Assembly: GCF_002831665.1 (NCBI RefSeq)
Contig: NZ_CP025118.1
Coordinates: 806,001-870,000, forward strand
Length of the DNA: 64,000 bases
Origin: Lacinutrix sp. Bg11-31
Lineage (GTDB): Bacteria; Bacteroidota; Bacteroidia; Flavobacteriales; Flavobacteriaceae
Direction: 5' to 3'
The notes under the pieces are model-generated. The model was not told the origin of the DNA. It made no database searches and saw nothing but the letters and a program-made list of their open reading frames with translations. This document shows, in pieces, positions 50,625-53,727 of this stretch. How positions within the stretch are numbered: position 1 is the first letter of the stretch; each line of letters starts with the position of its first letter. A program made the translations under genes and the position numbers.

Positions 50625-51002
50625 TTAGTCTTTAATTAATTTAGTTTTTGTAACAGTGCCTTTTTGCTTTTCAGATTTTCCAACATAAGAATATTCAAAA
50701 GTATAACCAGAATCTGTAGTGCTTAGAATTTTTAAATGAATATCATTTTTATCAGCCATACGTTTTGGGTTGATGGTTTTAAATACCACTTCGCAATCGT
50801 TAATCCATCTTACTTCGGATGAATCTATTTTATTATCGTAAGTTTCTATTTGGAGCTTTTCTGTCCTTAATATGTGTCCCGTTTTTTCGACGCCATTATC
50901 ATTGTAATTAAATTCAAAAGAACCTGTTTTATAATCAGTACAATTTCGTTCTGGTTGTTGGCAACTAACAATAAGAATAAATAGGAAGAGTAAGTGTTTC
51001 AT
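50625..51002 (-). CDS. Small lipoprotein upstream of terC
   Basis: The 125-residue protein has a short lipoprotein signal (lipobox LIVSC, Cys14) and a beta-rich mature part with NCTDYKTGSFEFNY, SEVRWINDCEVVFKTINPK and SGYTFEYSYVGKSEKQKGT. The family is widespread in flavobacteria, where I recall it sometimes carrying the product name DNA topoisomerase IV, which the sequence does not support. Two Cys in the mature part could form a disulfide. Function unknown. Confidence 0.7.
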   Translation of the reverse strand: MKHLLFLFILIVSCQQPERNCTDYKTGSFEFNYNDNGVEKTGHILRTEKLQIETYDNKIDSSEVRWINDCEVVFKTINPKRMADKNDIHLKILSTTDSGYTFEYSYVGKSEKQKGTVTKTKLIKD

Positions 51003-51302: not shown

Positions 51303-51719
51303 TTAATTCTCAAAATTTGAGAAACTACCATCTTTGTAGAAAATAATAATGCGATCAATTTCTTTTTTAGAATTTGAAGTAATTTGTTTTACTTCAGAAA
51401 TTTCAGTTGGATTTTTTTTAGTTTGAGATTCTGAAAATAAATCTTCATTTTCAGGTTTTGGTTTTTGTTCTACTTTTTGTTCTTCATTTTTATCAGAAGG
51501 AAAATTTCCTTTTCCATTCATCAACCAATACAATTCTACTTCCGGAAAAGAGGAGAGTACTTTTAATACAAATTCCAAACTTGGTTTATTTCTACCAGAA
51601 AGTATATGCGAAATACTTGAGCGTTGCACACTAATTTTTTCGGCAAAAGAAGACGCGCTTTCACCATAGTAATCTATAACTTTTTTAAGTCTTTTAGTAA
51701 ATTCTTCGTTGTTTATCAT
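51303..51719 (-). CDS. XRE-family helix-turn-helix transcriptional regulator
   Basis: A 138-residue protein with an N-terminal XRE HTH (~6-63): SASSFAEKISVQRSSISHIL, where the recognition helix is QRSSISHILSGRN. A Lys/Glu/Pro-rich linker follows (~75-110), then a short C-terminal strand motif DRIIIFYKDGSF that recurs at the ends of such flavobacterial regulators. There is no peptidase or ligand domain of the phage CI type. The gene is divergent from an M14 peptidase gene, and six copies of TTACAWWTGTAA lie between them, one overlapping its own probable promoter. Autoregulation plus control of the peptidase is the likely role. Confidence 0.85.
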   Translation of the reverse strand: MINNEEFTKRLKKVIDYYGESASSFAEKISVQRSSISHILSGRNKPSLEFVLKVLSSFPEVELYWLMNGKGNFPSDKNEEQKVEQKPKPENEDLFSESQTKKNPTEISEVKQITSNSKKEIDRIIIFYKDGSFSNFEN

Positions 51720-51723
51720 TGTT

Positions 51724-51770
51724 GTACAAATGTAAACAATATAAAAGAAACAGAGTGTTTACATTTGTGT
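51724..51770 (-). promoter_or_regulatory. Two operator palindromes at the XRE gene
   Basis: GTACAAATGTAA (51724-51735) and TTACATTTGTGT (51759-51770) are imperfect copies of TTACAWWTGTAA. The first contains TACATTTG on the minus strand, a match to the -7 box TAnnTTTG, only 8 bases from the XRE ATG. Regulator binding there would block its own promoter. Confidence 0.6.
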
Positions 51771-51946
51771 ATTTAACAGTGTAATTATAATTTTAGGCAT
51801 ATTAATACGAGTGTATTTTTTAAATAATTACTTTAACATTAACAATTTAAATCTCTGAAATTGAAATATTTATTATTTAAAACAAAAACAGAAGTATGAT
51901 TTTGTTAAAATGGATACCAACTGCATGTGATTTTTTAAACTATTGG

Positions 51947-52017
51947 TTACACTTGTAAATTACATTTGTAACAATCATTGGTTACAAATGTAAAACAGAT
52001 ATTGTTTACATTTGTAA
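51947..52017 (+). promoter_or_regulatory. Four operator palindromes upstream of the M14 peptidase
   Basis: TTACACTTGTAA (51947-51958), TTACATTTGTAA (51960-51971), TTACAAATGTAA (51982-51993) and TTACATTTGTAA (52006-52017). The last three are perfect 12-bp palindromes up to the central pair. Centre-to-centre spacings are 13, 22 and 24 bases. The fourth contains TACATTTG (52007-52014), a TAnnTTTG -7 box 20 bases before the peptidase ATG. The arrangement suggests cooperative repression by the divergently encoded XRE protein. Confidence 0.7.
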
Positions 52018-52033
52018 CATAAACAAAACCTAT

Positions 52034-53176
52034 ATGCAAGAGAAAGCGTTAAAGACTATATTTAATACACATAAAGAGAAGGCTCTTTTTGGGCGATATA
52101 TTCACACAAAACATATAACTCCTCTTTTAGAGAAGCATGCTAATAGTTTTAAAATTACCGTTATTGGACAGTCGGTTTTAGAAGAAAATATTTATTCTAT
52201 AACTATAGGGACTGGTAAAAAAAAGATATTAATGTGGTCTCAAATGCATGGAAACGAATCGACGACCACTAAGGCTATTTTCGATTTACTTAACTTTTTT
52301 CTGGAAAACAGTCTTGCTAAATCTATTTTAAAAGCTTGTACGATAGTAGTAATTCCTATTTTAAATCCAGATGGAGCAAAAGCATACACGCGATTAAATG
52401 CTAATGCAGTCGATTTAAATAGAGATGCACAAACTCTAACACAACCAGAAAGTAAGGTGTTAAAAAGTGTCTTTAATAGCTTTAAACCGCATTATTGCTT
52501 CAATTTACATGGTCAGCGAACTATATTTAGTGTAGGGAAAACTAATAATTCGGCAAGCTTGTCTTTTTTATCACCTGCTCAAGATAAAGACTGTACAATT
52601 ACTGATAATAGAAAGGTGGCTATGTCTATTATAGTTAAAATGAATGCAATGCTGCAAAAGGAGATTCCAAACCAAGTTGGAACATACGATGATGCCTTTA
52701 ATGTTAACTGCGTTGGAGACGCTTTCCAGAGCTTAAATGTGCCTACTGTTTTGTTTGAAGCTGGCCATTGTGCTAACGATTATGATAGAGAAGAGGTAAG
52801 GCGCTATGTTTTTCAGTCTTATATAGTTGCTTTAAAAACGATTACAGAAGAAGTTATTGATTTAGAGGACTATCAAGATTATATATCAATTCCGCAAAAC
52901 AAAAAGCTGTTTTTTGATGTAATAATAAAAGATGCAATTCATGATAATAAACGATTAGACATCGCTATTCAGTATCAAGAAAGATTAATAGGTGAAAAAT
53001 TACATTTCATTCCAAAAATAGAAAAAACAGGTAATCTTAGTCCTTTTTTTGCACATAACCATTTGAATGCTAGTGATAATGTGGTGTTAGACGTTAAAAG
53101 TAATCCTCTAACAATAGGTAGCGAAAACGATTTCGTGATTATAAATAATGTAAAATTTTCATTAAAATTTGATTAA
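52034..53176 (+). CDS. M14 family zinc carboxypeptidase
   Basis: A 380-residue metallopeptidase without a signal peptide, so probably cytoplasmic. Zinc ligands are H72 and E75 (MHGNEST) and H159 (FNLHGQR). Arg130 in VDLNRDAQ fits the substrate-carboxylate Arg, and the general base is probably E242 in VLFEAGHC. The last ~110 residues form an extra beta-rich domain. The substrate could be a peptide, a peptidoglycan fragment or an acylated amino acid. Four operator palindromes lie in its immediate upstream region, which is unusually dense control for a single peptidase gene. Confidence 0.85.
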   Translation: MQEKALKTIFNTHKEKALFGRYIHTKHITPLLEKHANSFKITVIGQSVLEENIYSITIGTGKKKILMWSQMHGNESTTTKAIFDLLNFFLENSLAKSILKACTIVVIPILNPDGAKAYTRLNANAVDLNRDAQTLTQPESKVLKSVFNSFKPHYCFNLHGQRTIFSVGKTNNSASLSFLSPAQDKDCTITDNRKVAMSIIVKMNAMLQKEIPNQVGTYDDAFNVNCVGDAFQSLNVPTVLFEAGHCANDYDREEVRRYVFQSYIVALKTITEEVIDLEDYQDYISIPQNKKLFFDVIIKDAIHDNKRLDIAIQYQERLIGEKLHFIPKIEKTGNLSPFFAHNHLNASDNVVLDVKSNPLTIGSENDFVIINNVKFSLKFD

Positions 53177-53247: not shown

Positions 53248-53727
53248 ATGGCAAAATTTAAATTAGACGAAATAGATCACCAAATTCTTGATATGTTGAT
53301 CGATAATACAAGAGTTCCTTTTACAGATATCGCAAAAAAACTATTAATATCTGCAGGAACTGTTCATGTTAGAGTAAAGAAAATGGAGGACGCTGGAATT
53401 ATTAAAGGTTCTTCACTTACATTAGATTATAAAAAACTAGGATATTCATTTATAGCCTACGTTGGTGTTTTTCTTAAAAACACATCGGAAACAACATTTG
53501 TTTTAGAGCGTATTAACGAAATTCCTTTTGTTACTGTAGCTCACGTTACTACAGGGAAGTTTAATGTTTTTTGTAAAATTAGAGCAAGAAATACTGAGCA
53601 CGCTAAAGATGTGATTTTTACGCTTGATGCAATCGAAGGTGTTTATAGAACAGAAACAATGATTTCTCTAGAAGAGAGTATAAACGATAAAAAACGTTTA
53701 ATGCACGATATTTTTAATTCTTTATAG
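53248..53727 (+). CDS. Lrp/AsnC family transcriptional regulator
   Basis: The 159-residue protein has an N-terminal winged HTH (~8-52: IDHQILDMLIDNTRVPFTDI, recognition helix in SAGTVHVRVKKMEDAG) and a C-terminal RAM ligand-binding domain (~70-150). Such proteins sense amino acids and act locally or globally. Two TATTTTTG boxes (53181-53188 and 53215-53222) lie in the 71-base gap upstream. A terminator follows at 53748. Ligand and regulon are unknown. Confidence 0.92.
   Translation: MAKFKLDEIDHQILDMLIDNTRVPFTDIAKKLLISAGTVHVRVKKMEDAGIIKGSSLTLDYKKLGYSFIAYVGVFLKNTSETTFVLERINEIPFVTVAHVTTGKFNVFCKIRARNTEHAKDVIFTLDAIEGVYRTETMISLEESINDKKRLMHDIFNSL

Follow-up and report, generated by a model that had tools for sequence, protein, structure and literature searches.

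Genes and palindromes at the XRE/M14 locus

The window, a 64-kb stretch (64,000 nucleotides) of the genome of Lacinutrix sp. Bg11-31, contains an XRE-type regulator gene (51303..51719, minus strand; 138 aa) and an M14 zinc-carboxypeptidase gene (52034..53176, plus strand; 380 aa), which diverge across a 314-bp intergenic region. The XRE protein is identified by the HTH_3 profile (PF01381; 27.1 bits against a gathering cut-off of 23) and by its AlphaFold2 model, in which an HTH domain of residues ~1–70 is followed by a low-confidence linker and a C-terminal β-hairpin (residues 123–137). The hairpin is conserved and approximates I-x-R-I-V-I-F-Y-x-D-G-[ST]-F. Readings of the gene as a defence, toxin–antitoxin or phage-repressor component were dropped because the family cut-offs were unmet, with 20.6 bits against an NCBIfam cut-off of 80 for the RstR phage repressor and 18.1 bits against 47.7 for the HigA antitoxin, and because PADLOC returned only weak HTH matches for the XRE protein and none for M14. 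The family-library search covered the XRE and M14 proteins; a small frame lies downstream of the XRE gene (50625–51002).

The M14 protein passes PF00246 (52.2 bits against a cut-off of 21.6), and no obvious signal peptide was seen by eye. All 20 aligned relatives share invariant residues H72, E75, N129–R130, H159 and E242, to which we assign zinc-binding and catalytic roles on the model of carboxypeptidase A. The fold is common to M14 metallocarboxypeptidases (3l2n and 4b6z, and MpaA by profile), although the solved M14 structures are only about 16% identical to the window enzyme, which differs from them by an extra β-rich C-terminal part (~288–376). An assignment as the murein tripeptide amidase MpaA was rejected (24 bits against an NCBIfam equivalog cut-off of 157), and the absence of AstE/AspA and MpaA structures among the 50 structure matches listed is uninformative either way. 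Retention of the gene in at least 20 genomes of ~0.3–0.6 Mb suggests a core role for the enzyme. Its retention in 0.6-Mb genomes prompted the question of whether it might be a desuccinylase of the lysine pathway, for which no evidence was found; PMC11191362 concerns other symbionts. Several family genomes (e.g., G119:C75, G239, G125, G001, G032 and G280) contain a second, longer close M14 paralogue in frames of ~490–507 aa. An Lrp/AsnC-type regulator gene (53248–53727) follows M14 in the window and in many relatives, and one adjoins the XRE gene in some loci that lack M14 (L141, L148, L155 and L156). The open-access literature, to which the search was confined (subscription journals and preprints lay outside it), yielded neither a name for the M14 enzyme nor a description of the XRE/M14 pair or its operator.

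The sequence-only reading reported six copies of a palindrome in the intergenic region. All six positions stand, but the wording was loose, since a scan of the 64-kb window finds exact TTACAWWTGTAA at only three of them, namely copies 4 (51960..51971), 5 (51982..51993) and 6 (52006..52017). Copies 1 (51724..51735; GTACAAATGTAA) and 3 (51947..51958; TTACACTTGTAA) each carry one mismatch, and copy 2 (51759..51770; TTACATTTGTGT) carries two. The copies are spaced by 35 bp (51724–51759), 13 bp (51947–51960), 22 bp (51960–51982) and 24 bp (51982–52006), with a further 35 bp between 51947 and 51982; copies 6 and 5 correspond to sites 1 and 2 of the relatives. Matches with up to two mismatches are at chance level over the whole 64 kb (50 found against 50.2 expected), so single weak matches carry no meaning. 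The intergenic region, however, holds five sites that deviate by one base or none, where 5000 dinucleotide shuffles average 0.11 and reach 2 at most, and three exact sites, where the shuffles average 0.007 and reach 1 at most. A site cluster far above chance is thereby confirmed. TAnnTTTG is present, as had been claimed, in the copy nearest each start codon and points at that gene: TACATTTG occurs on both strands, as a predicted XRE -7 box in copy 1 (51727..51734, minus strand; putative start at 51722, leader of ~3 nt) and as a predicted M14 -7 box in copy 6 (52007..52014, plus strand; putative start at 52019, leader of ~15 nt). The single Rfam match, to sau-66, is sub-threshold (30.6 bits against a cut-off of 80) and is attributed to the inverted repeats.

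An AT-rich, strongly conserved element of 57 bp (51818..51874) lies between the two operator clusters. Its score exceeds that of 99% of base shuffles in 96 of the 100 intergenics from which it was built, in 18 of 30 other intergenics and in four of six loci without a local M14; by this last count, it generally accompanies the XRE gene. The window copy contains no TAnnTTTG by eye.

Conservation of the pair and its sites

The XRE protein was matched in 142 of 149 family genomes representing 148 genera, and in 141 of 148 genera. Setting aside one weak match (G003), 141 of the 142 loci were analyzed. M14 is the next tested gene and divergent from XRE in 131 of them; of the remaining ten, four lie at a contig edge (L057, L068, L123 and L154), and the fetched stretch lacks M14 in the other six. 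A second set, of 80 loci from named organisms (Psychroserpens, Olleya, Bizionia, Winogradskyella, Flavobacterium, Christiangramia, Zobellia and others), which overlaps in part with the 141 and whose site counts were not used, has a divergent M14 in 77, the XRE gene being at a contig end in the other three. The synteny proposed for examination in other flavobacteria is thus kept, and the array control of one peptidase gene, which the sequence-only reading called unusual, is a common family arrangement. Since the divergent layout recurs across the whole family, it has the appearance of an established control circuit rather than of a local peculiarity.

The sites are conserved together with the pair. 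Counts were made in 130 family intergenics, with L121 (1.6-kb intergenic) and the ten loci without a local M14 left out. These intergenics hold 195 exact sites, against a mean of 0.5 and a largest count of 2 over 30 shuffles, and 372 when one mismatch is allowed, against a mean of 9.4 and a largest count of 18. At least one exact site is present in 107 of the 130, while four (L140, L151, L152 and L158; XRE identity 34–46%) show none even with one mismatch. Distances between sites cluster at 24 bp (68 pairs), 34–35 bp (45), 58–59 bp (27), 22 bp (8) and 13 bp (5). Among 20 order-level loci, both genes occur in the stretch in 15, not always adjoining, and 13 of these 15 have an exact site. The other five carry M14 without XRE in the stretch, and comprise L230, L233 and three reduced genomes of 0.34–0.63 Mb (L219, L220 and L221; 8–13 kb fetched), in which no exact site was found in the stretch. 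Outside the order, no M14 was found within 1.5 kb on each side of the XRE-type genes examined.

In all six family loci whose fetched stretch lacks M14, an exact site is nevertheless retained in the 800 nt upstream of the XRE gene, at 186–239 nt in L097 and L141 and within 46 nt in the other four. This observation bears on the proposal of the sequence-only reading that the locus forms a bistable or signal-cleaving circuit, in which M14 would cleave a signal controlling the XRE protein. The divergent pairing kept across the family accords with such a circuit, and multiple operators permit cooperativity. Nevertheless, XRE and its sites persist in these six loci with no M14 in the fetched stretch, M14 persists in the five order-level loci with no XRE gene in the stretch, and nothing was found in support of the proposal, which we regard as highly improbable. 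Negative autoregulation alone gives no bistability.

A probable operator over the -7 box and the start codon

A passage of PMC9723704 places the TAnnTTTG -7 box of F. psychrophilum at -12 to -5. A palindrome copy that is an operator alone leaves its two central bases free, whereas one that is also a -7 box must have TT on the strand of its gene. The XRE-proximal site carries TAnnTTTG toward XRE in 87 of 95 scored loci and in the opposite direction in 3, and at the M14-proximal site it points to M14 in 92 of 94, with no case of the opposite direction. At the next site 24 bp upstream, which serves as an internal control, the corresponding counts are 29 and 19 of 94. Fisher tests of orientation give 1.4e-24 for M14 and 6e-19 for XRE, uncorrected for relatedness; of the 130 loci, the scoring leaves out 35 without an XRE-proximal site of at most one mismatch within 60 bp and 36 without the 24-bp pair on the M14 side. 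In 47 of the 94 loci the M14-proximal palindrome is broken to TTACCTTTG or TTACTTTTG, yet the TTTG box is kept. In 32 of 87 loci, the XRE -7 box is preceded by a TTG at a distance of 19–20 bp; for M14, the nearest TTG is at 16 bp in 63 of 94, where it is part of site 2 and inseparable from it. The palindrome therefore overlaps the XRE gene's own predicted promoter, as in an autoregulating operator-over-promoter arrangement. Since the gene-proximal sites keep the box orientation far more often than the next site, the earlier suggestion that XRE autoregulates, controls M14 and excludes RNA polymerase through a -7 box within the operator gains comparative support, although each of these activities stays predicted.

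The same data bear on the reading that XRE binds the array but activates M14 or acts as a dual regulator. On the M14 side, further sites recur ~24 and 58–59 bp upstream of the proximal copy, at positions that could accommodate an activator. However, the proximal copy itself holds the -7 box in nearly all scored loci, and a protein bound there should block it; moreover, the M14 genes of the three reduced relatives, with no XRE gene in the fetched 8–13 kb, would appear to dispense with such an activator. Activation is accordingly improbable in our judgment.

The window's own group provides what is a natural experiment on the overlap between operator and -7 box. In L019–L021, the distance from the start codon to the two XRE-side copies is 11 nt greater than in the 27 loci aligned with them. 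The copy that is now proximal, at 4 nt from the ATG, carries the -7 box, and the copy that formerly did so has lost its orientation.

A further predicted operator, which the earlier reading missed together with the codons that it locks, lies over the XRE start codon in most relatives. Among 122 usable XRE starts (of 130, seven begin without ATG and L153 was left out as ambiguous), 99 have TTACA directly 5' of the ATG, compared with 162 of all 33,844 ATGs in these loci, the XRE ones included. The 12-mer over the start codon has one mismatch in 43 of the 122 and two in 54. Of these 97 start-codon sites, 69 lie 33–36 bp from the -7 copy, at a distance that recurs elsewhere; in 23 there is no -7 copy from which a distance could be taken. 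The second half-site coincides with XRE codons 2–3, NTA-AAC, where codon choice is nearly fixed: Val2 is GTA in 47 of 52 cases (background 30%), Ile2 is ATA in 53 of 57 (background 31%), and Asn3 is AAC in 114 of 117 (background 26%; binomial 2e-62). As a control, Asn at M14 codons 2–8 is AAC in 16 of 53 cases. At XRE codons 4–12 the proportion is raised (29 of 52), and some of the bias at codon 3 may accordingly be general to the start of the XRE gene. The near-total lock at codons 2–3 points to selection acting on DNA or RNA and not on protein, as judged from codon usage. In the window, the first three XRE codons, ATG-ATA-AAC (51711..51719, minus strand), represent the half-site of this operator in a decayed form, the 12-mer having four mismatches. 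The copy at 51724, 35 bp from copy 2, takes the place of the decayed copy, and the 11-nt shift in the window's own group freed the start codon from the operator. An operator that spans the start codon and locks the codons after it would illustrate cleanly how a binding site can shape coding sequence.

The probable binding protein and the reach of the operator

Most probably, an XRE dimer binds TTTACAWWTGTAAA, covers both gene-proximal -7 boxes and represses its own and the M14 promoters, with the other copies adding binding. The dimer would sit on the proximal palindromes and keep RNA polymerase off both boxes, resulting in negative autoregulation of XRE and repression of the divergent M14; copies 24 and 35 bp away would strengthen binding, possibly cooperatively. 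We infer binding, repression and cooperativity from the site sequences and their conservation, the -7 orientation, the codon lock and the retention of sites with XRE.

The link between site and regulator was also seen in another 67 loci with XRE-type genes, most of them from outside the family, for which the shuffle mean is 0.02 sites per locus. A site with at most one mismatch lies near the start in 28 of 37 genes with an RSxxSH helix (16 exact) and in 11 of 30 with other helices (4 exact). Because the helix groups were drawn after the loci had been inspected, and because the group with other helices plainly has sites too, this comparison offers support, not proof, and the link between the site and XRE appears looser outside the family.

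BlaI, MecI and CopY belong to a protein family unrelated to XRE. A winged-helix repressor of the BlaI/CopY type might nonetheless be the main binder of the array, whose core is TACANNTGTA, with the neighboring XRE gene incidental. The core is documented for CopY and said of BlaI/MecI in a passage of PMC7253601, together with repression through promoter-proximal operators, and the Lacinutrix genome has two BlaI-type genes, one with CTACATTTGTAG 41 bp upstream of its profile-match start. The outer bases differ, however: all 10 full cores at BlaI-type loci, which come from 7 of 32 loci (the other 25 have no full core), carry C..G, whereas the XRE array carries T..A, so that the array shares the core but not the outer bases of the BlaI form, CTACANNTGTAG. 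In addition, no BlaI gene was found in six of 24 genomes (G055, G136, G035, G067, G065 and G139; 84–91% complete), four of which keep a site near the XRE start (three exact, one with one mismatch). The array sites stay with the XRE gene, which argues against BlaI as the binder, and we consider this explanation unlikely. The CTACATTTGTAG just upstream of that BlaI-type gene of the Lacinutrix genome (L394; C1:2336294-2336632) is again a palindrome holding TACATTTG; possibly, the operator-over-(-7) arrangement recurs there in an unrelated repressor family.

Binding by XRE raises the question of how far the operator extends beyond the locus. In the Lacinutrix genome, TTACANWTGTAA is matched 18 times on the forward and 17 times on the reverse strand, compared with four times on each for the reversed pattern, and four of the forward matches are the array. 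The 14 outside loci, a count that leaves out sites 2947615, 3280624 and 3311340, comprise 11 inside open frames and 3 between genes (L009, L013 and L015). At L013 (C1:2256033), a copy with one center mismatch lies 44 bp upstream of a glutamate-synthase-like frame, and at L015 (C1:2525608) a copy lies 24 bp upstream of an acyltransferase-like frame, both frames being named from their translations; these frames are possible extra targets. Across 12 family genomes, the 14-mer TTTACAWWTGTAAA is matched 24 times and its reversed control 4 times. Half of its matches are at the XRE/M14 locus, and nine of the 12 others were examined: seven lie inside genes and two between genes (L328, and L329, 14 bp upstream of a 138-aa frame). 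No TTTACAWWTGTAAA match was found in eight genomes of the same class from other orders, not even at the XRE gene, so this stricter pattern is uninformative on regulons there. A wide regulon was rejected, as outside copies lie mostly in genes, and none is seen in the matches as far as tested. In the Lacinutrix genome, TTACANWTGTAA is in excess over its reversed control and occurs outside the array as well; scattering of the palindrome upstream of unrelated genes, which would have counted against the sequence-only reading and was checked in part, was not the pattern found.

The proposed mode of action resembles that of known regulators in part. In Foldseek comparisons of the HTH part, the XRE protein shares its fold with SinR, phage 434 repressor/Cro, C.BclI and C.AhdI (TMt 0.69–0.85; E 2e-3 to 2e-2, none below 1e-3). 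Small autoregulating HTH repressors use multiple short palindromes over divergent promoters, as in the window array. Unlike SinR, the 434 proteins and the C proteins, the XRE protein has a long linker and a conserved C-terminal hairpin, its partner is a peptidase gene, and its predicted operator overlaps a Bacteroidota -7 box and, in relatives, a start codon. A broader proposal, which we put forward as speculative and rather doubtful, is that of a Bacteroidota-wide class of small autorepressors, defined by an HTH and a C-terminal hairpin, in which a single operator would have been retained from a time before the orders diverged. This operator would overlap the -7 box and the class's own start codon, with DNA-level selection setting codons 2–3; a core cytoplasmic M14 would have been taken as partner in Flavobacteriales, and the product of the enzyme (e.g., a cell-wall peptide) would be the natural inducer.

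Gene regulation in Flavobacteriaceae is called understudied in the abstract of PMC9723704. At this locus, a regulator, its operator, the promoter logic and a likely target come together as a single unit open to testing, which recurs in almost all genera sampled from the family, and the sites of the array are candidate parts for repressible promoters in Bacteroidota.
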